NCBI RefSeq assembly: GCF_008039575.1
Contig: NZ_VDUY01000005.1
Location: 186,001-250,000, forward strand
Source: Zeimonas arvi
GTDB taxonomy: Bacteria; Pseudomonadota; Gammaproteobacteria; Burkholderiales; Burkholderiaceae_E
Length of the DNA: 64,000 bases
Direction: 5' to 3'
Part shown: positions 2,982 through 29,025 of the stretch, piece by piece
Layout: each line of letters opens with the position of its first letter
Position numbering within the stretch: the first letter of the stretch is position 1
Notes under the pieces: generated by a model
What the model saw: only the letters and a program-made list of their open reading frames with translations
Database searches by the model: none
What the model was told of the DNA's origin: nothing
Translations under genes and position numbers: made by a program

Positions 2982-3941
2982 TCAGTCGACCTTGATGCCG
3001 GCCGTCGAGATCAACGCCTTGAACATCGCGCTGTCGGCGGCGACGGTCTTCGCGAACTGGGCGGGATTCTCGTAGTCGGGGTACTGGCTGAAGGCTTCCA
3101 TCTTCGACTTGGCGGCAGGGTCCGCGAGCGCCTTCTGCACTTCCGCAGACATCCGGTCGACGACGGCGGCAGGCGTGCCCTTGGGCGCAAAGAGGCCGAA
3201 CCAACTGCTCGTGTCCATCGGATAGCCAAGCTCGGCCGTGGTCGGAACATCAGGAAGTTCGGGGTGCCGGTACTTGCCCGTCGCGGCGAGCGGCTTCGCC
3301 TGGCCCGCCTTGATCGCGGTCAGCGCAACCGAATCGTAGATCAGGTCTATCTGGCCGCCGATCAGGTCGTTCAGCGCCGGCGCCGAGCCCTTGTAGGGCA
3401 CATGCAACGTCTTGATCCCGGCCTTCATGTTGACGATCTCGCCGATCAAGTGCGTAATCGTCGCGGTTCCGGCCGAGCCGAAAGTCAGCTTTCCCGGAGA
3501 CTTCCTGGCAAGCTCGACCAGTTCCTTGAAGTCGTTGGCCGGAAGATCCTTCCGCGCGACCGCCATGCCGTAGCTCCCGGAGACCTTGGCGATCGGCGTC
3601 AGGTCGGCAGGATCGTAGGGGACCTTGCGCAAGTGCGGCGTGATGGCCACCACAGCGGTGGGCGCGAGAAGGAAGGTGTAGCCGTCGGCCGGTGCGCTGG
3701 CCGCCGCCTGGGCGCCGATCGTGGCCCCAGCTCCAGCGCGATTCTCGACCACGATCGGCTGCCCGATTGCCTGTCCGACCCGCTCGCCGATGAAACGGGC
3801 GATGTGATCCGAATTCCCGCCCGCCGGATACGGCACGATGAGTCGCACTGGCTTGGCGGGCCAGTCGTTGGCCATGGAAGGGCTCGTTGCGATCGACAAG
3901 GCGGCAAGCACGCCGCCCATCACGAGGGTACGTCGCTTCAT
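2982..3941 (-). CDS. Bug family (TctC-like) periplasmic solute-binding protein
   Basis: A 319-residue extracytoplasmic receptor of the tripartite tricarboxylate transporter type. It has a signal peptide (about residues 1-26, hydrophobic stretch GGVLAALSIATS) followed by the family hallmark KPVRLIVPYPAGGNSD. Later family motifs are VENRAGAGATIGA and HVPYKGSAPAL. Bug proteins bind carboxylates, amino acids or aromatic acids and are greatly expanded in Burkholderiales, often without a linked TctAB membrane pair, as here. AAGGAGA precedes the ATG at 3941. It is the last gene of the minus-strand catabolic cluster and probably captures that pathway's substrate. Confidence 0.92.
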   Translation of the reverse strand: MKRRTLVMGGVLAALSIATSPSMANDWPAKPVRLIVPYPAGGNSDHIARFIGERVGQAIGQPIVVENRAGAGATIGAQAAASAPADGYTFLLAPTAVVAITPHLRKVPYDPADLTPIAKVSGSYGMAVARKDLPANDFKELVELARKSPGKLTFGSAGTATITHLIGEIVNMKAGIKTLHVPYKGSAPALNDLIGGQIDLIYDSVALTAIKAGQAKPLAATGKYRHPELPDVPTTAELGYPMDTSSWFGLFAPKGTPAAVVDRMSAEVQKALADPAAKSKMEAFSQYPDYENPAQFAKTVAADSAMFKALISTAGIKVD

Positions 3942-3980
3942 GACTTCGGTCTCCTTATGAAGTGTCAAACGGCCGGCAGG

Positions 3981-4724
3981 TCAGCGGCCAGTGAAACGGG
4001 GGGCGCGCTTCTCGCGGAATGCCAGCATGCCTTCCTCGATGTCCGCGCTGTCCCTGACGATTCCGAGCTCCCGCTGCGCACGGCCCATCTTCTCGGAGGG
4101 TCCTTGGGCCAATACCGACTCGGTGACGAATCGCTTGATCGTCTGCAGCACCAGCGGCGCCATCCCCGCCAGTTCGCGCGCCATCGCCAGCGCCGCTTCG
4201 ACCTGCTGGCCCTTCGGCACCACCTGGTTCACCAGGCCGATCTCGTGCGCGCGGGCCGCATCGACGGTGCGCCCGAGCATCATGATCTCCATGGCGATCT
4301 TGTGCGGAATTCGGCCCGCCAGACCGGCGATCATCCCGCCGGTGAATCCGAGCTTCGCTTCCGGATAGGAGAACCTGGCGTTGTCGGCCGCGACCATCAG
4401 GTCGCACATCATCGCAATGACCATCGCGCCGCCGACGCACCACCCGCCGACCGCACCGATGATGGGCTTGTCGGTCGAGATGCCGACGGTCGGCACGCAG
4501 CGCCACAGCTCCGGAAGATTGGTCACGTCGGCGCCGCCCGAGAAAGCCTCGTCACCGGTACCGGTCAGGACGGCGATGCGCTGCGTCCCGCTTCGATCGA
4601 ACTCCGCAAAGGCGGCCTGGAGCTCCAGCGCAGTCTGTGCGCAGATCGCATTGCGCCTTTCGGGTCGGTTGATGGCGATCAGCGTGACGCCGTCGTCGTG
4701 GTTGGTGACAATGATCTTTTCCAT
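3981..4724 (-). CDS. Enoyl-CoA hydratase/isomerase (crotonase) family protein
   Basis: A 247-residue crotonase-fold protein. The CoA/oxyanion segments are visible: NRPERRNAI, then GTGDEAFSGGADV, then GWCVGGAMVIAMMCDLMVA. Where classical hydratases carry their two acidic residues, this protein has YPEAKLGFTGGM: the first Glu is present but the second position is Gly. It may therefore catalyse isomerisation, hydrolysis or decarboxylation of an acyl-CoA rather than hydration. It lies 39 bp upstream of the Bug gene and about 43 bp downstream of the acyl-CoA synthetase gene, so it is probably co-transcribed with both. The ATG after an AAGGA-type site sets the start. Confidence 0.88.
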   Translation of the reverse strand: MEKIIVTNHDDGVTLIAINRPERRNAICAQTALELQAAFAEFDRSGTQRIAVLTGTGDEAFSGGADVTNLPELWRCVPTVGISTDKPIIGAVGGWCVGGAMVIAMMCDLMVAADNARFSYPEAKLGFTGGMIAGLAGRIPHKIAMEIMMLGRTVDAARAHEIGLVNQVVPKGQQVEAALAMARELAGMAPLVLQTIKRFVTESVLAQGPSEKMGRAQRELGIVRDSADIEEGMLAFREKRAPRFTGR

Positions 4725-4767
4725 TTCCGCTTTTCCTTTTTCCGCGTTCTTGAAGAGGGAGGGTGGC

Positions 4768-6894
4768 TCAGGCGCCGACGCGCAGGCGTGCATCGACCGC
4801 AACGCACCGGTCGACATCCACGATCAAGGGATTGACGTCGAGCTCGAACTCCTGGGATCCCAGGTCGTGCGCCAGCCAGCTCACGCGCACGATGGCATCG
4901 ACCACCGCGTCGACGGCCAACGCCCTGCCGCGATACCCCGACAGCACGGGCCAGACCGACAGGGACTCCAGCATCCGCCGCGCATCGGCTGCGGCAATCG
5001 GCGCCCGCGCGATCGCACGGTCCGAAAGCAGTTCCACCAGCACGCCACCGGCACCGACGACGACGATCGGCCCGAACTGGGCGTCGCGGCGCGCGCCGAC
5101 GATCACTTCCAGCTTTCCGGATGCCATCGTCTGGACCGACACACCATCGATGCGCGCTGTCGGCACCGCGGCGCGGGCCCGGTCGACGATCTGCCGATAG
5201 CACGCGGCTGCGCCAGCATCGTCGGCGATTCCCACGGCAACGCCTCCGACATCGGACTTGTGGACGATGTCGGCCGAGACGATCTTCATCACGACCGGGT
5301 AGCCCAGTTCCCGGGCCGCCGTGGCCGCCTCGTCCGCCCCGCGCACGAGCCGGGACTCGTTCACCGGCACACCGTAGCCGGCGAGGATCGCCTTCGATGC
5401 CGCCTCGTCGTACTGGCCTGCGGCAGGCGCGGCCACCGTGGCGCCGGCCGGCCGTTCGGGCCGCGTCCTGGGCACGAAGCCGCTGCGCGCATGCCAGGCG
5501 ACCAGCGCATCGATTGCCTCGCCCGTGTGGTTGGTGAACGCGATGCCGCGCTCGCGCAGCACTGCGCGCGCCCGGTCGGCCGCACGGCCCGGCTGCATCA
5601 CCCAGAACGCGGGTTTGCGCGATTGGCCCTGGTCGTCCGTCATGCCCGCCGCGAGCTGATCGGCCAGCCGCTCCATCATCGGCGCCGTGGTGATCGCGTA
5701 GAGGAGCGCGTCCGTGTTCGGATCGGCGGCCACGATCTCGGCCGTCACCTTCGAAACGTCGGCGGCGTCGTCGAACTTCCGCCCACCGAAGTCGACCGGA
5801 TTCAGGCCCTGGCCCGGTGAGTAGTGCTCGTCCAGCGCAGCGCGCGTCGCCGGCGCGAAATCGGCCATCTTCAGTCCGCCGCTGCTGATCGCATCGGCGG
5901 CCAGCGCGCCGCCCCCGCCGGAAGTGGTCAGCACGGCCACGGTCTCGACCCTCGCGTCGGGGTGCCTGGCGAGTGCGGCGGCGAGGGTGATCATCGTGCC
6001 GGTGTCGTCGAGCATCGTGATGTTCTCGTCCCGGCACACCGATGCCAGCACCGCGTGCGAGCCCGCGATGCTCGCCGTGTGCGAGAACGCCGCGCGGCTG
6101 CCCGCATCGGTGCGGCCGGCCTTGACCGCCAGCCAGGGCTTGCCGGCCTCGCGCGCCCGGCGTGCGAGCTCGGCGAATCGCCGCGGGTCCTTGATGCCCT
6201 CGATGTAAGTGCAGATCACGCGAGTCCGCGGATCCTCGATCAGGTACTCCACGAAGTCGCACAGCTCGAGATCCGCCTGGTTGCCGACCGAGACGCAATG
6301 GGAGAAGCCGACGCCCATTTCGAGCGCCCGGTCGAAGATCGTGGCCATCAGCGCACCGCTCTGGCTGACGAAGCCGATCGGCCCAACCGGCAAGGCATCG
6401 ACATCGAGCGCCGGTGACGAGCAAAGCACGACGCGATTGGCCGGGCTGATGATGCCCAGGCAGTTCGGGCCGATCAGGCGCATGCCATGGGCACGCGCGA
6501 TCTCGACGATCTCCGCTTCCAGCGCCGCGCCTTCGGGGCCGGCGTCGGAGAACTTGGCGGTGATGATGATGCCGCCGCGCGCGCCACGCGCGGCAGCGGC
6601 CGCGATCTCGTCCTTGACCTTCGCGCGGGGCAAGGCCATGACGACCATGTCCGGTGCCTCGGGTGTGGCCGAGACCGAGGGCACGGTCTTGATGCCGAAC
6701 AGGCTCTCGCGGCCCGGATTCACGGGATAGATGGTGCCGGCGTAGCCGTGCTTGATCAGCATCCGGTACAGCCGGCCGCCGAACTTGGTCTGGTCTTCCG
6801 AGGCGCCGATCACCGCGACCGAACGGGGGGCGAGCAACTGCGAAACCTCGGCCACCGGCACAGGGGCCGACGGGGCGGGAGCATTCATGTTCAT
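4768..6894 (-). CDS. ADP-forming acyl-CoA synthetase (acetate--CoA ligase family, fused subunits)
   Basis: A 708-residue protein with both parts of an NDP-forming acyl-CoA synthetase. The N-terminal CoA-binding Rossmann domain starts at SVAVIGASEDQTKFGG (residues 25-40). A succinyl-CoA-ligase-like domain contains the phospho-accepting His272 in FSHTASIAGSH. A C-terminal ATP-grasp domain (from about 490) shows KIVSADIVHKSDVGGVAVG. It would convert a free carboxylate, CoA and ATP to acyl-CoA, ADP and phosphate. Two ATGs occur at 6894 and 6888; the second has the better spacing to AGGAG. In this cluster it is a candidate activating step for the imported acid. Confidence 0.92.
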   Translation of the reverse strand: MNMNAPAPSAPVPVAEVSQLLAPRSVAVIGASEDQTKFGGRLYRMLIKHGYAGTIYPVNPGRESLFGIKTVPSVSATPEAPDMVVMALPRAKVKDEIAAAAARGARGGIIITAKFSDAGPEGAALEAEIVEIARAHGMRLIGPNCLGIISPANRVVLCSSPALDVDALPVGPIGFVSQSGALMATIFDRALEMGVGFSHCVSVGNQADLELCDFVEYLIEDPRTRVICTYIEGIKDPRRFAELARRAREAGKPWLAVKAGRTDAGSRAAFSHTASIAGSHAVLASVCRDENITMLDDTGTMITLAAALARHPDARVETVAVLTTSGGGGALAADAISSGGLKMADFAPATRAALDEHYSPGQGLNPVDFGGRKFDDAADVSKVTAEIVAADPNTDALLYAITTAPMMERLADQLAAGMTDDQGQSRKPAFWVMQPGRAADRARAVLRERGIAFTNHTGEAIDALVAWHARSGFVPRTRPERPAGATVAAPAAGQYDEAASKAILAGYGVPVNESRLVRGADEAATAARELGYPVVMKIVSADIVHKSDVGGVAVGIADDAGAAACYRQIVDRARAAVPTARIDGVSVQTMASGKLEVIVGARRDAQFGPIVVVGAGGVLVELLSDRAIARAPIAAADARRMLESLSVWPVLSGYRGRALAVDAVVDAIVRVSWLAHDLGSQEFELDVNPLIVDVDRCVAVDARLRVGA

Positions 6895-6958
6895 TTCTCC
6901 TGATTGGGTTCTCTGGGAAGGAAGACGGCCGGCGAGCAGGCCGGCAGAGGCAGAGGAT

Positions 6959-7696
6959 TCAGCGCGAGCCTCCGAGCTGGCGCTCGCGATAGGCCGCCAT
7001 CCGCGCTTTCAGGCCCGGACGCGATGCCGACCGGACGAGCGCCGCGAGGTCGGCGTCCGACCCGTCGTCGGCGATCGCAGCGCGCAGCCCGGCCCAGGTC
7101 CGGCGGTCCACCATGACCGGCGCGAGCGCGCCCGAGCCTGCCTCTCCGGCGCCGACCGTCAACACCGCACTGGCCAGTCCCGTCTCGGCGGCCTCGTCGG
7201 CGCCGATCGTGGTCGCCTCGCTCACCCAGCGAAGCGCAGTGGCGTCGCCCACCCGGCGCGCGAGCCGACGCGTGCCCAGCACGATCCCGAATCCCGCGCC
7301 GGGAAAGCGCAGGCTCGCGCCCGGCGCGAGCAGGCGAAGGTCGCAGGCGGCGAACAGGTCGGCGCCGGCGCCCATGATCCGGCCCTGGCCGATCGCCACG
7401 GTGCGCACCGGCGCCCGCCACACCATGTCGAGCAGCATCTCGATCCGCACGAAGCGCCAGAGCAGCGTCGCGTCCGTCTCGCCATCGAGGTCCGACAGGT
7501 CGAAGCCGGTGCAGAAGTGTCGGCCGCTCGCTCGAAACGCCACCGTGTTCACCGACGCGTCCGCCGCGGCGCGGCCGAAGGCGCCGATCAAGGCCTCGAC
7601 GAAATCCGCCGACAATGCGTTGCCCCGCTCGGCGCGGTCCAGCGTGATCGTGACGACGCCGTCGGCCGCGGCGGAAACGGCGACGGGCGCGCTCAC
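6959..7696 (-). CDS. Second enoyl-CoA hydratase/isomerase family protein
   Basis: A 245-residue crotonase-fold protein that diverges from the family norm. It keeps ITLDRAERGNALS, RASGRHFCTGFDLSD and GRIMGAGADLFAACD for the CoA pocket. The usual PE(x)LG segment is FPGAGFGIVLG, so neither classical hydratase Glu is obvious. GTG at 7694-7696 is chosen because it overlaps the stop of the upstream thiol dioxygenase gene in a GTGA arrangement, a strong sign of translational coupling. The longer in-frame extension upstream is only the antisense or alternate frame of that gene. The reaction is unknown. Confidence 0.85.
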   Translation of the reverse strand: MSAPVAVSAAADGVVTITLDRAERGNALSADFVEALIGAFGRAAADASVNTVAFRASGRHFCTGFDLSDLDGETDATLLWRFVRIEMLLDMVWRAPVRTVAIGQGRIMGAGADLFAACDLRLLAPGASLRFPGAGFGIVLGTRRLARRVGDATALRWVSEATTIGADEAAETGLASAVLTVGAGEAGSGALAPVMVDRRTWAGLRAAIADDGSDADLAALVRSASRPGLKARMAAYRERQLGGSR

Positions 7697-8343
7697 TTCG
7701 CGCCCGCCCCGCCGCGCACCGCCGCCGAGCGGTCCCACAGGTTGGGCACCCGGTCCGACGAGTAGCCCGACACGAAGTCCTTGGACGCGCCGGTCTCCGG
7801 ATCGAAGACGTGACGACGCAACGCCCCGATGTTCGCGCCATAGACGTGGATGCTGATCGACGGCCGGTCCGGCAGCCCGTTGGCCACCACGTGGATGTCC
7901 CCGACCGTGGGCGACACCGCGTCGACCTCGCCGGGTCGCAGCGTGGCCTGCTCGCCGTCGGGCACCAGGCGGCCATCGGCCTCGCGCTTCCAGCGCTGGC
8001 ACAGCTCGGCGCCGCGCAGCATGCCGACCAGCCCCCAAACGGTATGGTCGTGCACCGGCGTGCGCTGCCCGGGGCCCCAGACGAAGCTCACCACCGAGAA
8101 ACGCTCGAGTGGATCGGCGTGCAGCAGGTACTGACGGTAGAACTGCGGGTCGGGCTGCGCGCAGAACTCGGGCAGCCAGTCGTCGCGGGCGATCAGCTTC
8201 GCCAGCAGCTCGCGGCCTTCGGCGAGCAAGGCGGGCTCGTGGTCGGTGCGCTCGACCAACCGGGTCATCGCGACGACGAACTCGCGCAGCGGCGCGATCG
8301 GCTCGACGCCCTGCGCGGGCGCCTGGTCGGGTCGGGTGTTCAT
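7693..8343 (-). CDS. Cupin thiol dioxygenase, 3-mercaptopropionate dioxygenase-like (cysteine dioxygenase family)
   Basis: A 216-residue non-haem iron dioxygenase. The 3-His site is His98-x-His100 (PVHDHTVWG) and His151 (GDIHVVAN). A Ser164-His166-Tyr168 outer-sphere triad is read from SISIHVYGANIG. Gln71 (YRQYLL) sits where mammalian-type cysteine dioxygenases have the carboxylate-binding Arg, and the Cys of their Cys-Tyr crosslink is replaced by Gly. These features fit bacterial 3-mercaptopropionate/cysteine dioxygenases, which oxidise a thiol to a sulfinate with O2; residue equivalences are from memory of the family. The ATG at 8343 has AGGAG eight bases upstream. It sits between a CoA-transferase and crotonase genes. 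Confidence 0.82.
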   Translation of the reverse strand: MNTRPDQAPAQGVEPIAPLREFVVAMTRLVERTDHEPALLAEGRELLAKLIARDDWLPEFCAQPDPQFYRQYLLHADPLERFSVVSFVWGPGQRTPVHDHTVWGLVGMLRGAELCQRWKREADGRLVPDGEQATLRPGEVDAVSPTVGDIHVVANGLPDRPSISIHVYGANIGALRRHVFDPETGASKDFVSGYSSDRVPNLWDRSAAVRGGAGAK

Positions 8344-8398
8344 TCCATGATCTCCTGACAGTTCTGCCATGCCACAGCGGCTCGAGCGGGAGCGCCCG

Positions 8399-9550
8399 TC
8401 AGACGACGGTCCGCTTCGCTGCCGCGCGAAGTTCGTCTTCGTGCTCGCCGAGCGCCGGCGCGCGGGTGTTCACCACGACCGGCGCGCCGTCGATGCGCAC
8501 CGGGCACACGAAGGTCTTCGTGTCGGTGCCGCCCGGCATCGTCATCGGCCGCACGAGTTCGAGATGGGCGGCCTGCGGATCGGCCAGCGCCTCGTCGTAG
8601 CCGTTGATCGGCGCGTGCGGCACGCCGGCCTTCTCGAAGCGCGCCAGCCACTGCGCCGCGTCGTCGAGCACGAAGCGGGCCTCGAGCAGGTCCTTCAGCG
8701 CCACCTGGTTGGCCGCGCGCAGGGTGGTGGTGGCGAATCGCTCGTCGGCGAGCAGCTCGGGCATCGCCACGACCTCGCAGACGGAGCGCCACAGGCGATC
8801 GTTGCCCGCCGCGATCGCGAACCAGCCGTCGCGCGCGCGATAGGCCTGGTAGGGCGCATTGCGAGGATGCGCCGAACCCAGCTTGCGCGGATTCCGGCCG
8901 GTTCCGAAGTACTCGCTGGTCTGCAAGGCAGCGATCGCCAGCGTGGTGGCGAACATCGGCACGTCGACCTGGCCGCCCGGCCCGCCGGCGCGCACCCGCG
9001 CGATCATCGACGCGATCGAAAAGGCGCCGTACAGGCCCGCGGTGAAGTCGGCCACCGGCACGCCGCACTTGACCGGGGCGCCGTCGGGCTCTCCGGTCAC
9101 ACTCATCACGCCGGCAGCGGCCTGGATGGTCAGGTCGAAGCCGCCCTCGCCGGAACGCGGCCCGCTCTGCCCATAGGCCGAGATCGAGCAGTAGACCAGC
9201 GCGGGCTTGCGCGGGCCGAACCAGTCCCAGCCCAGCCCCAGGCGCTGCATGACGCCGGGGCGATTGTTCTCGACCAGGACATCGGCCTCGAGCACCAGCG
9301 CGCGGGCGACCTCGAGATCCTCGGGCTTCTTCAGATCGAGCGCGATCGAGCGCTTGCCGCGGTTCAGCGAGGCGAAATTCTCGGAGAAGCCGTTTCGGAT
9401 GGGCGGCCACTGCCGCAGCCCGTCGCCTTCCGGCGGCTCGATCTTGACGACCTGCGCGCCGAAATCGGCCAGCAGCATGCCGCAGAACGGGCCCGCCGCC
9501 ACCTGGCAGAACTCGACGACCCTGACGCCGGCCAAGGGATGCACGCTCAC
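8399..9550 (-). CDS. CaiB/BaiF (class III) CoA-transferase
   Basis: A 383-residue family III CoA-transferase. It begins LAGVRVVEFCQVAAGPFCG and contains LNRGKRSIALDLK, VENNRPGVMQRLGL and GGFDLTIQAAAG. Asp139 in the last motif is in the place of the catalytic Asp that carries the acyl group. Such enzymes move CoA between carboxylates without ATP. The GTG start at 9548-9550 overlaps the stop of the upstream Bug gene (GTGA). The same cluster also has an ATP-dependent CoA ligase, so two activation steps, or activation of two acids, are likely. The acceptor acid is not identifiable. Confidence 0.93.
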   Translation of the reverse strand: MSVHPLAGVRVVEFCQVAAGPFCGMLLADFGAQVVKIEPPEGDGLRQWPPIRNGFSENFASLNRGKRSIALDLKKPEDLEVARALVLEADVLVENNRPGVMQRLGLGWDWFGPRKPALVYCSISAYGQSGPRSGEGGFDLTIQAAAGVMSVTGEPDGAPVKCGVPVADFTAGLYGAFSIASMIARVRAGGPGGQVDVPMFATTLAIAALQTSEYFGTGRNPRKLGSAHPRNAPYQAYRARDGWFAIAAGNDRLWRSVCEVVAMPELLADERFATTTLRAANQVALKDLLEARFVLDDAAQWLARFEKAGVPHAPINGYDEALADPQAAHLELVRPMTMPGGTDTKTFVCPVRIDGAPVVVNTRAPALGEHEDELRAAAKRTVV

Positions 9551-10554
9551 CTCTCCCCCTTCAGGCCGATCGCAGGCAGCAGGTCTGCGTAATAGGCGCG
9601 AGCGTCCTCGAGGCCCTTGCTGTAGGCATCGGGGGGCGTCCAGCGCGCCACGACCCCGAAACGCAGCATCGCGTCGACGTTCTTCGGATCGGTGACAACC
9701 TGCTCGAGTGCGCTCGACAGCTTGCGCATGACATCGGGCGGCGTACCGCGCGGGGCCATGATGCCCCAGCCGCCGGTCGGAAGCTTCGCCTTCACGCCAG
9801 CCTCGATCAGCGAGGGCACATCGGGCAGTTCCGGATGACGGCGATCGGAAAACGCGGCCAGCGCGACCGCCTTGCCCGACTTCGCCATGCCGAGCCCGAC
9901 CCCGTCGAGGATCAGGTCGATCTCGCCGCCGATCAGCGCCGCGATCAGCTGGCCCGATCCCTTGAAGGGCACGTGCAGCAGGTCGATGCCGGCCTCGCGC
10001 TTCAGGATCTCGCCGGCGATGTGGCCCGCCGACGCGATACCGGCCGAGCCGAAGGTCAGCTTGCCAGGCGCCTTCTTCGCGCGATCGATCAGTTGCTGCA
10101 GGCTCGTCACGCCGAGCTCGTTGCGCGCGGTGATGATCGCGATGTAGTCGGCTACGCCGCCGGCGAACTCGAAACCGGTCACCGGGTCGTAGGGAAGCTT
10201 GCGCATGTTGGGCAACACCGAGAATGCGGTCGCCGAACCCTGCAGGATCGTGTAACCGTCCGGGTCGGCTCGAAAGACCTGATCGGTGCCGATCTGGGTC
10301 GTGCCGCCGGGCTTGTTCTCGATGACGACGGTCGTGCCCAGCGCTTCGCGCAGACCCTCGGCGAGCACCCGCCCCAAGGAATCGCTGCTGCCGCCCGGGG
10401 GAAAGGGCACCACCATGCGGATCGGGCGGTCGGGCCAACTGCCCTGGGCGCGGGCGGCGACCGGGAACAACGACGCAGCGGCGAGCGCCACGCCCCCGGC
10501 GAGCAGCGCTCGACGAGGGAGCCTGTCGACGCGGTCGGTGCCTGAACTGTCCAT
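9547..10554 (-). CDS. Bug family (TctC-like) solute-binding protein, possibly Tat-exported
   Basis: A 335-residue Bug receptor. The leader carries LPRRALLAGG before a hydrophobic stretch ending in ARAQG; the paired arginines suggest a possible Tat signal rather than a plain Sec signal. The mature protein shows RPIRMVVPFPPGGSSD, VIENKPGGTTQIG and LHVPFKGSGQ, all Bug hallmarks. AGGAG precedes the ATG at 10554. It is the first gene of the minus-strand CoA cluster and overlaps the CoA-transferase start by four bases. The co-transcription suggests that it binds the acid activated by that enzyme. Confidence 0.92.
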   Translation of the reverse strand: MDSSGTDRVDRLPRRALLAGGVALAAASLFPVAARAQGSWPDRPIRMVVPFPPGGSSDSLGRVLAEGLREALGTTVVIENKPGGTTQIGTDQVFRADPDGYTILQGSATAFSVLPNMRKLPYDPVTGFEFAGGVADYIAIITARNELGVTSLQQLIDRAKKAPGKLTFGSAGIASAGHIAGEILKREAGIDLLHVPFKGSGQLIAALIGGEIDLILDGVGLGMAKSGKAVALAAFSDRRHPELPDVPSLIEAGVKAKLPTGGWGIMAPRGTPPDVMRKLSSALEQVVTDPKNVDAMLRFGVVARWTPPDAYSKGLEDARAYYADLLPAIGLKGER

Positions 10555-10615: not shown

Positions 10616-12247
10616 CTATGCCGCCCTGCGGATCTCCCATTCCTGGCCTGGGATCGCTGCAATCAGTGACCGGGTGTACTCGTGCGCTGGCTGGCGGAAG
10701 ATCGTGCCGGGCGTCCCGATCTCCACGATGCGTCCCCGCTGCATGACGGCCACCCGGTCGCACAACTGGCTCGCCACCCTCAGGTCGTGGGTGATGAAGA
10801 GGAGGGCGAGACCCAGGTCGCGCCGGATCTGCTCGAGGAGCTCGAGAACCTGGGCTTGAACCGACACGTCCAGCGCGGACACCGGCTCGTCCGCGACGAT
10901 CAGTTCCGGGCGCATCACCAGCGCGCGCGCGATCCCGATCCGTTGCCTCTGGCCACCGGAAAACTCATGCGGAAAGCGGTCCGCCGCGGACGCCTCCAGG
11001 CCGACGCGCTCGAGCGTCTCGAGCAGTCGGCGGTTGGCTTCCTCGGGGTCGACACCGGCCAGGATGGCGGACTCCGTGACGATGCGGCGTATGCGATGCC
11101 TCGGGTTGAGGGACGCAAAGGGGTCCTGGAACACCATCTGAATCCGGGGACGCAGCGCGCGCAGCGCCCTGCCCCGAAGCTTTCCGAGGTCGACGCCATC
11201 GAACCGCATGCTTCCGCCGTCCGGCTCGATGAGCCTGGCGACGATCTGCCCGAGCGTCGTCTTGCCGGACCCCGACTCGCCGACCAGGCCCAGTGTCTCG
11301 CCGCGCCCGATCTCGAGCGAGACGTCATCGACCGCCCGCACGCCCGCGCGTTCCCGCTTGAAGAAGCTGCGGCGCGCCGCATACTGCTTGCTCAATCCGC
11401 GGATGACGAGCAACGGCTCCCTGGTCTGCGCCTGCAGGCGCCGGTCGGCAAGGCGAGGCACGGCAGCGATGAGTTTCCGGGTATAGGGATCGGCGGGCGC
11501 TTCGAGCACCCGCGACGCGGGCCCCGCCTCCACCACCCGCCCGGTCTGCATCACCACCACCCGGTCGGCCAGATCCGCGACGACCCCGAAATCGTGAGTG
11601 ATGAACAGCACGCCGATGCCGCTTCGCTGCCTGAGCTCCCGGATCAGCGACAGGACCTGCGCCTGCGTCGTCACGTCGAGCGCCGTCGTGGGCTCGTCGG
11701 CGATCAGGAGCCTGGGCTCGAGCGCCATCGCCATGGCGATCATCACTCGCTGTCGCTGGCCGCCCGACAGCTGGAACGGGTAGCGGCCGCGCAGCGTTCC
11801 GGGATCCGGCAGGTGCATCGACTCGAGCAGCTCCAGCACACGCTTGCCGCGCGTCGTCGAATCCCCGAACCCATGGACCGCGAGCGCCTCGTCGATCTGC
11901 TCGCCTACCGTGAGGACGGGGTTCAGCGCCGTCATCGGCTCCTGGAAGATCATTGCCATCCGACGACCGCGAAGCTCGCGCATCTGCTCGGCCGACAGGA
12001 CTGCCAAGTCCTGTCCTTCGAACAGGATCCGGCCACTCTTCGCCTCGAGCGAAGGCGGCAGCAGCCGCATGGCCGCGTTGGCGAGCACCGACTTCCCGGA
12101 TCCCGACTCGCCGACCACGCAAACGATCTCTCCCGGGGCAACGGTGATCGAGACACCGGACACCGCGAATCCGCGGTCGCCGCCGCGAGGCAGCGACACC
12201 GACAAGTCGCGGATCTCGAGCAAGGCTTCGGCATGGCCGCGGTTCAT
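10616..12247 (-). CDS. Peptide/nickel-type ABC transporter, fused double ATPase (DppD-DppF type)
   Basis: A 543-residue protein with two complete ABC ATPase units in tandem. The first has Walker A GESGSGKS (about 46-53), the LSGGQ signature (160-164) and Walker [13 protein letters not shown]. The second has GESGSGKT (about 323-330), [10 protein letters not shown] and [12 protein letters not shown]. Each half ends with the oligopeptide-family C-terminal extension ([22 protein letters not shown]). It energises import through the adjacent DppC and DppB permeases. Its ATG overlaps the dppC-like stop (ATGA). Fused double ATPases of this kind serve peptide, glutathione, opine and nickel importers. 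Confidence 0.93.
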
Positions 12248-13089
12248 TGCGCTCCCCCCCGTGCATGCGATTGCCTGGGATTGAGCGCCATGTTGAGGGC
12301 ATCCCCGAAGAGGTTCAGGCCGAGCACGGTCACGAAGATCGCCATGCCGGGAAACGCCGACAGCCACCAGTTCTGGAGGATCATGGTGCGCCCCGCTCCG
12401 ATCATGAAGCCCCAGGAGATGTAGTTCCGGTCGCCCAGGCCGAGAAAGCTGATGGACGACTCGAGCAGGATCGCGGTTGCGACCATCAGCGATGCCGCGA
12501 CCACGATCGGAGAAACCGCATTCGGAAGAATCTGGCATGCCATGATCCTCAGATGCGATTGCCCGCCGACCACCGCGGCACGGACGAAGTCCCGGGTCTT
12601 CAGGCTCAGGAACTCGGCGCGCACCAGACGCGCGACCGATGGCCAGGAGACCGCGGCGATCGCCGCGACGATCGACACCATCGACGGCGCGAGGATCGCC
12701 ACCAGCACCAGAGCCAGCAGGAAGCTGGGGATCGTCTGCACGAACTCCGTCAGTCGCATCAGCAGATCGTCGATCCATCCCCCGAAGAAGCCCGCGATCG
12801 CCCCGATGACGGTCCCGACCACCACCGACACCGTGGTCGCGAGGAGCGCAACGAGCAGCGACACGCGGGCACCGTGCACGAGCCCCGCCGCGACGTCGCG
12901 GCCCAGCACATCGGTTCCCAGGAGATAGCCCGGCGAAAAGGGCGGCAGGTTCGGCTCGGCGACCATCCGCCAGGGGTTGCCGGGATACATCAGGTCGGCA
13001 GCCAGGGCGATCGCGACGACGGCCGCGAGGATCGCGGCGCCGAGCAGGCCGCCGGGCGTGCCCAGCAGCATCCGCAGGAACGGCTTCAT
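12244..13089 (-). CDS. Peptide/nickel-type ABC transporter permease (DppC family)
   Basis: A 281-residue inner-membrane permease. It has an N-terminal hydrophobic segment (GGLLGAAILAAVVAIALAAD), the OppC/DppC-type periplasmic segment YLLGTDVLGRDVAAGLVHGAR, and several further membrane spans. The cytoplasmic EAA-like loop AVVGGQSHLRIMACQILPNA contacts the ATPase. It overlaps both neighbours by four bases (ATGA), so the permease genes and the ATPase gene form one operon. The substrate is determined by the linked binding protein. Confidence 0.93.
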   Translation of the reverse strand: MKPFLRMLLGTPGGLLGAAILAAVVAIALAADLMYPGNPWRMVAEPNLPPFSPGYLLGTDVLGRDVAAGLVHGARVSLLVALLATTVSVVVGTVIGAIAGFFGGWIDDLLMRLTEFVQTIPSFLLALVLVAILAPSMVSIVAAIAAVSWPSVARLVRAEFLSLKTRDFVRAAVVGGQSHLRIMACQILPNAVSPIVVAASLMVATAILLESSISFLGLGDRNYISWGFMIGAGRTMILQNWWLSAFPGMAIFVTVLGLNLFGDALNMALNPRQSHARGGAQ

Positions 13090-14063
13090 GCGGCCACCTC
13101 GATCCGGGGGTCGGCGAGCCGGTACAGGACGTCGGCGACGAGGTTGAACACGATCACCATGACCGAACAGACGAAGAAGATGGCCAGCAGAAGGTTGTAG
13201 TCACGCTGGAACAGGGCGTCGAACGCGAGGCGACCGATTCCCGGCCAGGCGAAGACCGTCTCGATGAGGACCGAACCTCCGACGATGTGACCGGCCTGAA
13301 TCGTCGCGAAGGTGATGACGGGCAGGAGCGCGTTGCGCAGAACGTGACGGCGCCAGATCCGACCGTCCGGCACGCCCTTGGCCCGCGCGGTCTTCACGAA
13401 ATCCTGGTCGACGACGTCGGCGACCGCAGCCCGCGTGACCCGCATGTACACGGCCATGTAGAAAAGTCCGAGCGTCAGCGCCGGCATCGCCAGGTGACGC
13501 AGCATGTCGAGCAGCCGGGCGATCCCCTCGAGCCCCGCCCCCACCGTCGACATCCCGTAGGCAGGAAGCCACTGGAGCTGCATGGAGAACAGCACGATCG
13601 CCATCAGCCCAAGCCAGAACAAGGGCATGGCGAAGAACACCAGTGAAAGCACCGTGATCGCCGCGTCGATCCTCGACCCGGGCCTTCGCCCGGCGGCCAC
13701 ACCGAGCGCGACGCCAGTGACGAGGGCGAATGCAAAGGCGCTGAGGGTGAGCATCAGGGTCGCCGGCAGGCGCTCGATGATGATCTCGGCGACCGGGCGG
13801 TTTTCGCGGAACGACTTGCCGAAGTTGAACGTCGCGACCTGCCCCACGTAGACCAGCAGCTGTTCGGGCAAGGGACGATCCAGGCCGAAGTCGCGCCGCA
13901 CGTCCGCGATGAACTGGGCGTCCGCGGCGCCCATCTCTCCGGCGATCACCTCGGCCGGATCGCCCGGGGCCATCCTCAGCAACATGAAGTTGAGGACGAT
14001 GACCCCCAGCAGGACGGCCGCGGCCTTCGCCAGCCTCGAGAGAACCGGTTTCAGGCGATGCAT
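13086..14063 (-). CDS. Peptide/nickel-type ABC transporter permease (DppB family)
   Basis: A 325-residue inner-membrane permease of the DppB/OppB/GsiC type. The N-terminal span VLLGVIVLNFMLLRMAPGDP is the family hallmark. Five further hydrophobic segments follow, and the coupling loop reads ARAKGVPDGRIWRRHVLRNA. It lies 6 bp downstream of the solute-binding protein gene and overlaps dppC by four bases, so it is the second gene of a five-component importer. No sequence oddity was noted. Confidence 0.93.
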   Translation of the reverse strand: MHRLKPVLSRLAKAAAVLLGVIVLNFMLLRMAPGDPAEVIAGEMGAADAQFIADVRRDFGLDRPLPEQLLVYVGQVATFNFGKSFRENRPVAEIIIERLPATLMLTLSAFAFALVTGVALGVAAGRRPGSRIDAAITVLSLVFFAMPLFWLGLMAIVLFSMQLQWLPAYGMSTVGAGLEGIARLLDMLRHLAMPALTLGLFYMAVYMRVTRAAVADVVDQDFVKTARAKGVPDGRIWRRHVLRNALLPVITFATIQAGHIVGGSVLIETVFAWPGIGRLAFDALFQRDYNLLLAIFFVCSVMVIVFNLVADVLYRLADPRIEVAA

Positions 14064-14069
14064 GTCCGC

Positions 14070-15656
14070 TTACCGCTTGATCCAGACGTCGGCGAAGTTC
14101 TCGTTCATCCCGAGCCCCGTCGCCAGGAGGTTGTGAACCTTGGTCCGGTGCAGGGTCGGGAAGACCAGCTCATGGGTCCAGAGCACCGGAAGGTCCTGCG
14201 AGAGAATCTTCTGCAGCTCGGCATACAGCCTGCGGCGTTCGGCCACGTCCTGGGTGTGCTCCGCCGTGCGAAGCAACTCATCGACGCGCGGATTCGAGTA
14301 GCCGCCGACGTTGGCCGCGGACGACGGTACCGGCATGCCGGCGAAGCTCAGGTAGGTCTGATTGCTCCCGATCGCCGGGTCGCCGAGCAGGTAGACGAAG
14401 TTGAGCGCGAGGTCGAAGTCACCGCTGGTGATCCGGCGGTACCAGCCGGGCACGTCGGTCGGCACCAGTGTCACCTTGATGCCGACGTCGCCAAGGCGTT
14501 CGCGGATGAATTCCGCGAACCGCTGCCAGGTCTCGCCGTAGGGCAGGGGCACCAGCCTCAGCTCGGCCCGCACGCCGTCGGCATTCGGCTTCAGGCCCAT
14601 CTCGTCGAGCAGGGCGCGCGCCCGGGCCGGATCGAACGGATAGCGCGTCTCGGCGGCGGTGTTCTTGAAGGGGCTTCGGGAAGTGAACGGGCCGTCCGTC
14701 AGGCGACCGAAACCCGAGAACACCGAGCGCACGATGAAGTTGCGATCGATCGCGTGGGCAAGCGCCTGACGGAAGCGGACGTCGTCGAGCGGCTTGTTGC
14801 GCAGGTTCAGGTTGAGGAAACCGATCGGGTCGAGGAATTCCCAGCCAGACTCGGCAAGCTTGACGTCCTTGGCGATCGCGAGGCGGCGCAGCTCGAAGTT
14901 CTCGACATCGCCACCGCGGAGCGCATCGATCCTCCCGGTTTCGAAGGCGATTGCCCTGCCATTGGCGTCCGGGATCACGTGGAAATAGATGTTGTCGAGA
15001 TGCGGCTTGCCGGGCGACCAGTAGTCGGGATTGCGGACCAGGTGGATGTATGCGCCTTTGCGCCACTCCTTGACCCGAAAGGGGCCGGTGCCGACGATGG
15101 TGTTGTTCTGGGACGCGGTTCGATACTCGGTCACCCCCTCGTACATGTGCCGAGGCATGATCGTCCCGCCAGTGGCGTCGAAGATCAGCATGAACGAAGG
15201 AAAGGGCTGCTTGAGCCGGAAGACCGCGGTATGCGAATCGGGCGCGGTGATCGACTCGACCTTCTCCATCACCTGGCGGGTGCGGGCGAAGGTGGCCGGC
15301 AGGAACTTCTGGAAGCTGAACAGCACGTCCTCCGCGGTGAAGGGCTTGCCGTCGTGCCACTTCACGTTCTTGCGCAGCTTGAAGGTGTAGACGAGTCCGT
15401 CCGGCGAGATGGACCACGACTCCGCCAGCATCGGGATCGGCTCCAGCTTGGGCGAGAGGGTGATCAGGCCTTCGTAGAGTTTGCTTCCGACGAAGGACAC
15501 GGGGCCGAGCTTGTTGACTCCGAGGTTGATCGTGGGCGGCTCGGGCTGCACGATCAGGTTCAGCGTGCCGCCGTTGACAGGTGCCTGGGCATGGGCGAAC
15601 CCGCCGAGGGTCGCTGCGGCGAGCCAGGTTCCGAACAATCTCAACATGCGCTTCAT
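14070..15656 (-). CDS. Peptide/nickel-type ABC transporter substrate-binding protein (SBP family 5)
   Basis: A 528-residue periplasmic binding protein. A signal peptide (MKRMLRLFGTWLAAATLGG, cleavage near AHAQA) is followed by family 5 motifs: LAESWSISPDGLVYTFKLRK, WHDGKPFTAEDVLFSF and RVKEWRKGAYIHLVRNPDYW. This family binds peptides, nickel, haem, glutathione and opine-like or amine conjugates. Placement between an aminotransferase gene and the permease genes suggests an amine-containing ligand. The ATG at 15656 is chosen because the signal peptide begins there. Confidence 0.93.
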   Translation of the reverse strand: MKRMLRLFGTWLAAATLGGFAHAQAPVNGGTLNLIVQPEPPTINLGVNKLGPVSFVGSKLYEGLITLSPKLEPIPMLAESWSISPDGLVYTFKLRKNVKWHDGKPFTAEDVLFSFQKFLPATFARTRQVMEKVESITAPDSHTAVFRLKQPFPSFMLIFDATGGTIMPRHMYEGVTEYRTASQNNTIVGTGPFRVKEWRKGAYIHLVRNPDYWSPGKPHLDNIYFHVIPDANGRAIAFETGRIDALRGGDVENFELRRLAIAKDVKLAESGWEFLDPIGFLNLNLRNKPLDDVRFRQALAHAIDRNFIVRSVFSGFGRLTDGPFTSRSPFKNTAAETRYPFDPARARALLDEMGLKPNADGVRAELRLVPLPYGETWQRFAEFIRERLGDVGIKVTLVPTDVPGWYRRITSGDFDLALNFVYLLGDPAIGSNQTYLSFAGMPVPSSAANVGGYSNPRVDELLRTAEHTQDVAERRRLYAELQKILSQDLPVLWTHELVFPTLHRTKVHNLLATGLGMNENFADVWIKR

Positions 15657-15718
15657 GGTGTCTCCTCTGCCGGTGGCCACCGGCCGGTATCGGTTCCGCT
15701 TGCGTGTCTGCCTGCTGT

Positions 15719-26094: not shown

Positions 26095-27096
26095 ATGTCC
26101 AGACTCCCGCCGCTTCGCCTCGATCCTGCGCCGCTGCCTGGCGTCCTCACCGCGATCACCATCGCCCTGGCCGCAAGCTTCCTGGCCGAGCGCTACGACG
26201 GCCCCCAATTGCTCTTCGCCCTGCTCTTCGGGATGGCATTCAACTTCGCCGCAGAAGGCCCCCGCGTAAAGACCGGGATCGATTTCGCGTCGAAGAAGAT
26301 CCTGCGCTTCGGGGTCGCCCTGCTGGGCGCGCGCATCGGCATGGAACAGATCGTTGCACTGGGCGCCGCGCCGGCGGCGATCGTGGTGGTCGCGGTGAGC
26401 GGCACGATCCTCTTCGGCTGGCTACTGTCGCGAGTGTTGCGCAGACAGGCAGCCGACGGCCTGCTCACCGGCGGGGCGGTCGCGATCTGCGGGGCTTCGG
26501 CGGCGCTGGCGATCTCGGCGGTGCTGCCCCAGGGGAAGGATCAACAGCGATTCACCTTGCTCACCGTGGTGGGCGTCACGACACTATCGACCGTCGCGAT
26601 GGTGCTCTACCCGCTGATCGTCGAATCCCTCGGGCTCGACGCACGCGGGGCAGCCGTGTTTCTCGGCGGCTCGATCCACGACGTGGCCCAGGTCGTGGGC
26701 GCCGGCTTCATGATCTCGCCCGAGGTCGGTGACGGGGCCACACTCGTCAAGCTGCTGCGCGTCGCGATGCTCGTGCCGGTGGTGCTGATCTTCGCGCAGG
26801 TCTATCGAGGCGCAGGCGGCGTCGACGGCGCAGCCCGTCCGCCCTTGCTGCCCGGTTTCCTGGTGGCCTTCATCGCGCTGGTGGTGCTCAACAGCGTGGG
26901 CGTCGTCCCGAAGGCCGTGGCCACCGGGCTCGGCGACCTGTCGCGATGGTGCCTGGTGGTGGCAATCGCCGCCCTGGGGGTGAAGACCTCCTTCCGGCAG
27001 CTGGCCGAGCTCGGCTGGCAGCCAGTGGTGATGATCGTCGGCGAGACCTTGTTCATCGCCGCAGTGGTCCTCGGGGGGGTTCTGCTGCTGCGCTGA
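26095..27096 (+). CDS. YeiH/YadS-type putative sulfate exporter family membrane protein (Cons_hypoth698)
   Basis: A 333-residue protein with about nine or ten hydrophobic spans. Family motifs are FALLFGMAFNF, ASKKILRFGVALLGARI, TGGAVAICGASAALAISAVLP and GGSIHDVAQVVGAGFMIS. Proteins of this family are annotated as putative sulfate or sulfite exporters, though direct proof is sparse. In this neighbourhood, with a thiol dioxygenase and an S-oxide-reductase-like enzyme on the same segment, export of sulfur oxyanions is a reasonable guess. The 16-bp motif at 25985-26000 may control it. No strong ribosome-binding site precedes the ATG. Confidence 0.88.
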   Translation: MSRLPPLRLDPAPLPGVLTAITIALAASFLAERYDGPQLLFALLFGMAFNFAAEGPRVKTGIDFASKKILRFGVALLGARIGMEQIVALGAAPAAIVVVAVSGTILFGWLLSRVLRRQAADGLLTGGAVAICGASAALAISAVLPQGKDQQRFTLLTVVGVTTLSTVAMVLYPLIVESLGLDARGAAVFLGGSIHDVAQVVGAGFMISPEVGDGATLVKLLRVAMLVPVVLIFAQVYRGAGGVDGAARPPLLPGFLVAFIALVVLNSVGVVPKAVATGLGDLSRWCLVVAIAALGVKTSFRQLAELGWQPVVMIVGETLFIAAVVLGGVLLLR

Positions 27097-28119: not shown

Positions 28120-29025
28120 TCAGTTTTCGGCCACGCCGGGAGCCTCGCGCAGGGCCCGGGCGATCTCGCGGGCCCGCTCGTTGTCGGCCCGCAAGCGGGC
28201 GATCTCCTCGGGCGGCGTGCGCGCCACGTTGCAGTAGTCGAGCTTCCAGGCATCGTCTTCGGCCCAGCGCAACGGCGAGTGCAGCGTGGTGCGCGCCGCC
28301 GGGGCCGACTCGAGCAGGCGCAGCGCCAGCTCGAGCGTGGCGGCCTGCGAGCGCGGATCCCCTGGCCGGCCGGCGGCATTGCCCAGCGGGAAGTCGTTGA
28401 ACAGGAAGCGCGGCACGCCGCAGTGCTCGACGATGTCCTTCGCGGCCCCGATCACCACGGTGCCGATCCCGCCGGCTTCCAGGTGGCGCGCCACCAGCGA
28501 GACGGTCTGGTGGCAGACCGGGCAGTTCGGCACCAGGATCGCCGCATCGACGCGGTCCTGGCGGCAGCGCGCCAGGATCTCCGGCGCGTCGACCTCCACG
28601 GTGTGCCGCTGGCTTCGGTTGGTGGGCGCGCCGTGAAAGCGCGGGGCCAGCCGGCCGACGCGGCCCGCGCGCACCGCATCGCGCAGCGCCTTCAGCGGGA
28701 ACCAGCAGCCGATGTCCGCCATGTCGGCGTGCCTGCGGTCGATGCCGACGTGCGCGATCCGCAGGTCCGGGTCGCCGGCGCTGTCGCCCGAATAGACCTG
28801 GTAGAACTTCGCGGCTGCGTTGTAGGGCGCGCCCGGACCCTGCAGCCCCTTGTCGGGCTGGAACGGCGCCGCCGTGGTCACGATGGCGACCCGGCTGGCC
28901 GCCAGCGGTTTGCGAAGCGGCTGGAAGGGCGCGTCGTCGTGGTGCGCCCATTCATAGGGGTTGTCGTAGCCGAGCGCGAGATACCACTCGCGCGTGCGCT
29001 GCATGTAGCGGACGGGACCCTGCAC
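28120..29025 (-). CDS. Glycine/sarcosine/betaine/D-proline reductase subunit B (GrdB)-like protein without selenocysteine
   Basis: A 301-residue protein resembling the substrate-binding GrdB/PrdB part of amino-acid reductases. IAHVGIDRRHADMADIGCWFPL and AAILVPNCPVCHQTVSLVARH are the best landmarks. The redox motif of clostridial GrdB is recalled as Sec-x-x-Cys-x-x-Cys; here Cys168-x-x-Cys171 is kept but the Sec position is Val165. A classical Stickland reductase is therefore unlikely, and no other reductase subunits are nearby. The start is GTG at 29023-29025, directly after the stop of the 100-residue gene, so the two are coupled. The reaction is unknown. Confidence 0.68.
   Translation of the reverse strand: MQGPVRYMQRTREWYLALGYDNPYEWAHHDDAPFQPLRKPLAASRVAIVTTAAPFQPDKGLQGPGAPYNAAAKFYQVYSGDSAGDPDLRIAHVGIDRRHADMADIGCWFPLKALRDAVRAGRVGRLAPRFHGAPTNRSQRHTVEVDAPEILARCRQDRVDAAILVPNCPVCHQTVSLVARHLEAGGIGTVVIGAAKDIVEHCGVPRFLFNDFPLGNAAGRPGDPRSQAATLELALRLLESAPAARTTLHSPLRWAEDDAWKLDYCNVARTPPEEIARLRADNERAREIARALREAPGVAEN

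Follow-up and report, generated by a model that had tools for sequence, protein, structure and literature searches.

A conserved CoA-transferase, thiol dioxygenase and crotonase gene core in Zeimonas arvi with a candidate flavin-free desulfinase

Introduction

A gene cluster of Zeimonas arvi raises the question of how sulfite could be released from a small mercaptocarboxylate by a bacterium that encodes a thiol dioxygenase and lacks the known desulfinase. The cluster lies in a 64,000-nucleotide stretch of contig NZ_VDUY01000005.1 (assembly GCF_008039575.1, positions 186,001 to 250,000 of the forward strand), which is called the window here and whose numbering is used below. To our knowledge, the flavoprotein Acd is the only enzyme described for the desulfination step. 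We found that three genes of the cluster, for a class III coenzyme A (CoA)-transferase (CoAT), a thiol dioxygenase (TDO) and a crotonase-fold protein (CRT1), form a conserved core, and we propose CRT1 as a candidate sulfinoacyl-CoA desulfinase on the basis of sequence comparison.

The gene cluster and its conserved core

Seven co-directional minus-strand genes occupy positions 2982-10554 of the window. Gene calls and Pfam searches indicated that all seven are real, in agreement with the cluster and the protein families named in an earlier reading made from the sequence only:

9547..10554, minus strand: Bug1, TctC-type solute receptor (Pfam TctC 5.5e-57, 194 bits against a gathering score of 27)
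8399..9550, minus strand: CoAT, class III CoA-transferase, GTG start (Pfam CoA_transf_3 3.8e-123)
7693..8370, minus strand: TDO, thiol dioxygenase of the 3-mercaptopropionate dioxygenase (3MDO) family (solved 3MDO structures 1e-72 to 3e-76)
6959..7696, minus strand: CRT1, crotonase-fold protein (Pfam ECH_1 2.5e-24)
4768..6894, minus strand: ACS, single-chain ADP-forming acyl-CoA synthetase (Pfam CoA_binding_2, Succ_CoA_lig and ATP-grasp_5, 8e-69)
3981..4724, minus strand: CRT2, second crotonase (Pfam ECH_1 8.8e-49)
2982..3941, minus strand: Bug2, TctC-type solute receptor (Pfam TctC 4.8e-66, 224 bits against a gathering score of 27)

Bug1 and CoAT overlap by 4 nucleotides, the CoAT start lying on the Bug1 stop, and TDO and CRT1 overlap by the same length. 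None of the seven proteins scored above the cut-off of any NCBIfam equivalog model.

The CRT1 alignment was scanned against 84,980 species genomes, which gave 156 relatives, and the best 80 loci were read with genes called by a simple in-house open reading frame (ORF) caller and assigned by profile thresholds; several of these loci are metagenome bins with doubtful-looking species labels. CoAT, TDO and CRT1 stood together in 48 of the 80 CRT1 loci, TDO and CRT1 without CoAT in another 7, and CRT1 came directly after TDO in 53, with its start -7 to +126 nucleotides from the TDO end. CoAT was fused in a single ORF with CRT1 in four genomes and with TDO in two (the identical loci L041/L084 and L043/L125 were each counted as one), and these fusions link CRT1 with the CoA ester expected from CoAT. 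Among 300 genomes of the order, CRT1 was found in 36 (at least 170 bits), TDO in 52 and both in 32 (Fisher p 4e-25, a value that overstates independence because the genomes are related). In the family of the window, 51 of 74 genomes had a TDO match, about 40 of them close, and when the seven proteins were mapped onto neighbouring loci a CoAT-TDO-CRT1 block recurred. The association of CRT1 with TDO reaches across Burkholderiales, Rhizobiales, bins labelled Gammaproteobacteria and other groups.

The other four genes were less constant. CRT2 was present in 24 of the 80 loci, and ACS and CRT2 occurred together in only 12, so the sequence-only reading of one seven-gene module does not hold: the core is CoAT-TDO-CRT1. 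A single seven-gene pathway was likewise rejected, since the ACS, CRT2 and Bug genes are not beside the core in most relatives. In the sister locus L039, whose orthologues are 87-99% identical, a YeiH gene (89% identical to the window YeiH) lies directly upstream of a contiguous CoAT-TDO-CRT1 run, which stands beside two PhyH genes. By comparison, in the window Bug1 and a block of ABC-transporter and aminotransferase genes separate YeiH from CoAT, and ACS-CRT2-Bug2 sit between CRT1 and PhyH. The L039 layout shows the seven genes of the window as a core plus additions; judged by gene content across the loci, CRT1 is the hub of the cluster, and ACS and CRT2 are add-on genes.

TDO belongs to the 3-mercaptopropionate dioxygenase family

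Comparison with PDB sequences gave E-values of 1e-72 to 3e-76 for 3MDOs, 5e-8 for a mercaptosuccinate dioxygenase and 3e-7 or worse for cysteine dioxygenases, and a TDO-family profile gave the same order (1e-87 to 1e-89, 5e-15 and 9e-11, respectively). The score against Pfam CDO_I was 22.1 bits, slightly below the cut-off of 23. In a tree of 75 sequences, the Pseudomonas aeruginosa, Azotobacter vinelandii and 4qma 3MDOs nested within the TDO tree; the phylogeny that had been suggested as a check therefore places TDO among characterised 3MDOs and separates it from unrelated cupins and from the dioxygenases of mercaptosuccinate and cysteine.

In the Azotobacter 3MDO, the iron is bound by His 90, 92 and 142, the Ser-His-Tyr residues are 155/157/159, a Gln stands at the Arg60 site of cysteine dioxygenase and Arg168 binds the carboxylate (PMC8050391). 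TDO has iron ligands His107, His109 and His160, an SxHxY triad of Ser173, His175 and Tyr177, and Arg186 as the equivalent of Arg168, all kept in 45 of 45 homologues. Gln80 is invariant in the same set; it is numbered on the 225-residue form and corresponds to Q71 of a 216-residue form that starts at an alternative ATG at 8343, so the triad and the Gln71 of the 3MDO type described earlier are both present. By sequence, tree and active-site residues, TDO is a member of the 3MDO family. The Azotobacter enzyme also turns over cysteine and cysteamine (PMC8050391).

The desulfinase Acd is absent from the genome

Acd was searched with the curated model NF042439 (3-sulfinopropionyl-CoA desulfinase), which has a cut-off of 600 bits. 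The best score in the Zeimonas arvi genome was 284 bits, so the acyl-CoA-dehydrogenase-type desulfinase noted as missing from the cluster is missing genome-wide, and a desulfinase encoded elsewhere in the genome was rejected because no gene came near the cut-off. Acd was above cut-off in 1 of 74 genomes of the family, which was not the Zeimonas arvi genome, and in 2 of the 300 order genomes versus 36 for CRT1. Of the genomes carrying the full core, 21 were checked for Acd, which was present in 2 and missing from 19. We also tried a strict mutual exclusion of Acd and CRT1, which was rejected: 6 of 35 CRT1 genomes have Acd, two of them with full CRT1 clusters.

The 3,3'-dithiodipropionate cluster of Advenella mimigardefordensis DPN7 has the order act-acd-mdo-AhpD-TctC-TctC (PMC5373536). 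It resembles the window in its class III CoA-transferase, 3MDO-family dioxygenase and two TctC/Bug receptors, and differs in having the flavoprotein Acd where the window has CRT1 and a CoA-transferase of another subfamily. The Acd neighbourhoods in our genomes, which resemble this published cluster, contained a class III CoA-transferase, Bug receptors, YeiH and a thiamine-diphosphate enzyme, and in Candidimonas also TDO and AhpD. In 7 of 80 loci, from different genera, YeiH and CRT1 were no more than about 10 kb apart, against 0.17 expected, and an AhpD protein, the counterpart of the one in the Advenella cluster, was near the core in six CRT1 loci with 55-66% identity to a copy in an Acd cluster. 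The YeiH, AhpD and Bug genes common to CRT1 and Acd clusters are our reason for assigning CRT1 to the step of Acd. The earlier suggestion that crotonases stand in the place of the desulfinase thus fits CRT1, which occupies the Acd position and is a good candidate for C-S cleavage, and does not fit the add-on CRT2.

The thiamine-diphosphate enzyme (534-549 residues) adjoined Acd in five different genomes (L183, L214, L215, L216 and L218), which suggests a 2-oxoacid decarboxylation feeding the pathway.

CRT1 is a crotonase-fold protein with altered and invariant acidic residues

The predicted structure of CRT1 had a predicted local distance difference test (pLDDT) score of 95, and the nearest solved structure was 3isa (43% identity, Z 35.8; the next structure had Z 29.4), a putative enoyl-CoA hydratase of Bordetella parapertussis that has the same R81/E86/D113/G133 pattern and no assigned function. 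In 63 homologues with 43-91% identity to the window copy, N26, C62, T63, G64, D66, R81, E86, GAGAD113, P132-G133 and R144 were invariant. The modelled fold and the oxyanion-hole motifs CTGxDL and GAGAD, invariant in all 63, identify CRT1 as a member of the crotonase superfamily. At the sites of the catalytic glutamate pair Glu144 and Glu164 of rat enoyl-CoA hydratase, CRT1 has Asp113 and Gly133, both invariant, and so lacks the hydratase pair. CRT2 has Val102 and Glu122 there, Glu122 being the single acidic residue retained among eight aligned orthologues, and the altered acidic residues seen at first sight in both crotonases were thus borne out.

Proposed pathway

The substrate, the reaction and mechanism of CRT1, and the roles of ACS and CRT2 we infer as follows. 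TDO would oxidise a short mercaptocarboxylate to the sulfinate; the most likely one is 3-mercaptopropionate, or else a compound closely related to it. CoAT, which carries Asp168 in a GVxxxD motif, is predicted to form the sulfinoacyl-CoA by transferring CoA, probably from succinyl-CoA, to the carboxylate of the sulfinate. CRT1 would then release sulfite and leave propionyl-CoA, or acetyl-CoA if the substrate were a two-carbon alpha-sulfinate. The thioester would lie in the oxyanion hole of CRT1, Arg81 or Arg144 may hold the sulfinate, and the acidic pair Asp113 and Glu86 are candidates for acid/base catalysis, with which CRT1 would do the job of Acd without a flavin. Sulfite would be oxidised and exported by YeiH, and propionyl-CoA would enter the methylcitrate cycle; the genome encodes a citrate/methylcitrate synthase of the 2-methylcitrate-synthase type that scores above the TIGR01800 cut-off, and four sulfite-oxidase-family proteins, one of which adjoins a second YeiH gene at C1:95463-97315. 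The Bug receptors, ACS and CRT2 possibly import, activate and cleave a thioether precursor. We hold with about even confidence that the cluster is such an operon for thiol-acid catabolism, in which CRT1 carries out the desulfination without a flavin.

The reaction proposed for CRT1 is that of Acd, the release of sulfite from a sulfinoacyl-CoA, on a crotonase fold instead of an acyl-CoA-dehydrogenase fold with flavin adenine dinucleotide. Acd reportedly depends on one arginine and has no dehydrogenase activity, which gives a precedent for an arginine-dependent, non-redox desulfination. Methylmalonyl-CoA decarboxylase, which has a crotonase fold, loses a small acid anhydride and leaves a thioester enolate, and it can serve as a mechanistic model for CRT1 should the sulfinate sit at the alpha position; the leaving group is CO2 there and would be SO2 here, and the two are likened by mechanism and not by close sequence relation. 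More tentatively, and a little short of even confidence, we suggest that the CRT1 family as a whole consists of flavin-free crotonase-fold sulfinoacyl-CoA desulfinases that expel SO2 in a decarboxylase-like way and that, being much commoner than Acd, they are the common bacterial route by which Burkholderiales and their relatives release sulfite from mercaptocarboxylates.

Several points weigh against this proposal. Cleavage of a C-S bond beta to the thioester has no obvious enolate route, and the crotonase mechanism is easy only for an alpha-sulfinoacyl-CoA; the alpha-sulfinate is chemically easier, whereas the TDO family favours 3-mercaptopropionate, which would give a beta-sulfinate. By profile comparison, CoAT is outside the Act subfamily of succinyl-CoA:3-sulfinopropionate CoA-transferases: CRT1-linked transferases scored 570-770 bits with the CoAT profile, and Act-like proteins beside Acd scored below 300 bits. 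In 13 of 80 loci CoAT and CRT1 had no TDO beside them, on two plasmids they stood with Rieske oxygenases, and the genome G057 has YeiH-TDO-CRT1 with no CoAT close by. Acd and CRT1 clusters occur together in the genomes of Acidovorax sp. MR-S7 and Candidimonas nitroreducens, so CRT1 may have a different substrate and a simple replacement is not proven.

Alternative explanations

The 3,3'-thiodipropionate cluster of Variovorax paradoxus TBEA6 contains mdo, act, acdA, ech-20, ech-30 and crotonase 05510, and its crotonases act on thiodipropionyl-CoA, before 3-mercaptopropionate is formed (PMC6370202). Growth on thiodipropionate requires Ech-20 and Ech-30, growth on 3-sulfinopropionate does not, and the CoA thioester of thiodipropionate stabilises Ech-20 (PMC6370202). 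This cluster, compared by its published description, is like the window in combining mdo, a CoA-transferase and several crotonases, and unlike it in keeping acdA and in the upstream action of its ech genes. CRT1, CRT2 or both could therefore act upstream of the thiol, cleaving CoA-activated thioether acids such as 3,3'-thiodipropionate to provide 3-mercaptopropionate for TDO, with desulfination elsewhere or spontaneous; ACS and CRT2 would suit such an activation followed by thiolate elimination. We regard this as rather unlikely, because the conserved partner of TDO is CRT1 and not CRT2, and because TBEA6 has the desulfinase Acd as well, which the window genome lacks. The case does show that the presence of crotonases next to mdo is not in itself a sign of desulfination. 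Of 61 genomes from the genus Variovorax, one (G411) had Acd above the cut-off, and TBEA6-type crotonases were not next to its acd gene.

It seems distinctly unlikely that one of the many ordinary acyl-CoA dehydrogenases of the genome desulfinates or oxidises 3-sulfinopropionyl-CoA and that CRT1 then serves as a hydratase or isomerase. At E <= 0.001 the Acd profile gave 21 matches in the genome, and a hydratase role would be ordinary crotonase chemistry, but none of the matches is near the cut-off, the profile labelled no recurring member of the CRT1 clusters, and the glutamate pair of hydratases is missing from CRT1. Crotonases also include hydrolases and inactive binders, and EchA6 was among the sequence and fold matches of CRT1, so CRT1 might be a CoA hydrolase, an accessory protein or an inactive acyl-CoA binder that regulates or recycles CoA; this appears quite improbable, as the oxyanion-hole motifs, R81, E86 and D113 stay unchanged across 63 divergent sequences, beyond the need of an inactive protein. 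The loci with CoAT-CRT1 and no TDO, and the plasmids with Rieske oxygenases alongside, could also mean that CoAT-CRT1 acts on non-sulfur acids and the oxygenases just prepare diverse substrates. This we consider very improbable, since several TDO-less loci contain sulfur genes (cystathionine beta-lyase, cupin and YeiH in L118; a PatB C-S lyase in L221).

Add-on genes of the cluster

ACS carries CoA-binding, Succ_CoA_lig and ATP-grasp domains, as in ADP-forming acyl-CoA synthetases, and scored far below the cut-off of all NCBIfam ligase equivalogs. Its best PDB matches were 3-hydroxypropionate- and 4-hydroxybutyrate-CoA ligases, and the dimethylsulfoniopropionate lyase DddX (7cm9) matched more weakly (1e-68), so a DddX-type lyase was rejected. 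In the 12 loci with both genes, CRT2 pairs with ACS; Bug2 comes after CRT2 in most CRT2-bearing loci, and a Bug1 orthologue is at the same position in some relatives only. Bug1 is likely the importer receptor of the add-on layer, and ACS may be an add-on activation enzyme, with ACS, CRT2 and the Bug receptors possibly lineage-specific feeders. Our weakest assignment is that these two enzymes, ACS and CRT2, might activate a thioether and cleave it in the manner suggested for TBEA6 (PMC6370202).

Neighbouring genes

Three more genes of the window recur beside the core in other genomes:

26095..27096, plus strand: YeiH-family (PF03601) putative sulfate exporter (PF03601 3.8e-63), adjoining CoAT in the sister genome and apart from it here
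28120..29025, minus strand: PrdB/GrdB-like protein with a CPVC motif, a partner of the CoAT-TDO operon in L044-L046
29392..30657, minus strand: BenE-family transporter, next to the PrdB-like gene and CoAT-TDO in L044-L046

Immediately upstream of Bug1, also on the minus strand (10616-17125), are a class III aminotransferase gene and the genes of a dipeptide-type ABC transporter; in other genomes, CRT1 clusters are flanked by relatives of both. On the plus strand, two adjacent PhyH-like oxygenase genes (1277-2978) run towards the cluster, and in the nearest relatives they are still found with CRT1.

The genes ahead of the core differ between lineages. Further candidate feeder genes were cystathionine-beta-lyase-type enzymes in loci L095, L097, L112, L116, L118 and L135, an aminotransferase with an aldehyde dehydrogenase ahead of the core in genus g16, BenE and the PrdB-like gene with the core in L044-L046, and, on Bradyrhizobium plasmids, a sulfopyruvate-decarboxylase-like pair with an aldehyde dehydrogenase and an SsuA-like importer. 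All of these would fit the formation of a small thiol acid out of a larger organosulfur molecule, and the sulfur-linked ones, the cystathionine-beta-lyase-type enzymes and the sulfopyruvate-decarboxylase-like pair with its SsuA-like importer, speak for the proposed pathway. On peanut-nodule plasmids (L220, Bradyrhizobium plasmid p53363, 680-8744), a CoA transferase, a cysteine dioxygenase and CRT1 stand by sulfopyruvate-decarboxylase-like subunits and an SsuA-like ABC importer.

The alphaproteobacterial-type loci L112, L116 and L118 have CoAT, a cystathionine beta-lyase and CRT1, with YeiH in L118, and TDO was not found in them. L112 and L118 additionally hold RidA and a small Cupin_2 protein; the best PDB matches of the small cupin found with CRT1 in Alphaproteobacteria were gentisate dioxygenase and oxalate decarboxylase cupins, so that a thiol-dioxygenase-like identity for it is at most possible. 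In L221 (Paraburkholderia graminis) and L224 (Bradyrhizobium sp. Ash2021), a Rieske oxygenase and reductase replace TDO beside the CoA transferase and CRT1.

Copies of the PrdB/GrdB-like gene were also found at L111:15486-16469, L113:4663-5610 and L136:4188-5270, directly 3' of CRT1 in L113 and L136 and about 5 kb after it in L111. All three have an in-frame TGA at the first Cys of the CPVC motif of the window copy, and the 32 nucleotides starting at the TGA are nearly identical and contain a CCAGAC-loop-GTCTGG hairpin. The in-frame TGA and the conserved hairpin indicate that these genes probably encode a selenocysteine protein; an Rfam search gave no annotated RNA at the presumed selenocysteine sites.

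Significance

In the openly licensed literature searched, a crotonase was linked with desulfination only in the TBEA6 paper (PMC6370202), which supports the novelty of the proposal and is no proof of it. If CRT1 is a desulfinase, C-S cleavage of sulfinoacyl-CoA would have evolved twice on unrelated folds, and the flavin of Acd would not be essential to the chemistry. Catabolism of the 3-mercaptopropionate type would then be much more widespread than Acd searches suggest, the orphan structure 3isa would gain a function, and CoAT-TDO-CRT1 would be a gene marker for the turnover of organosulfur acids. Even if the reaction is a different one, the conservation of CoAT, TDO and CRT1 as a trio means that three small proteins are enough to test the question directly.

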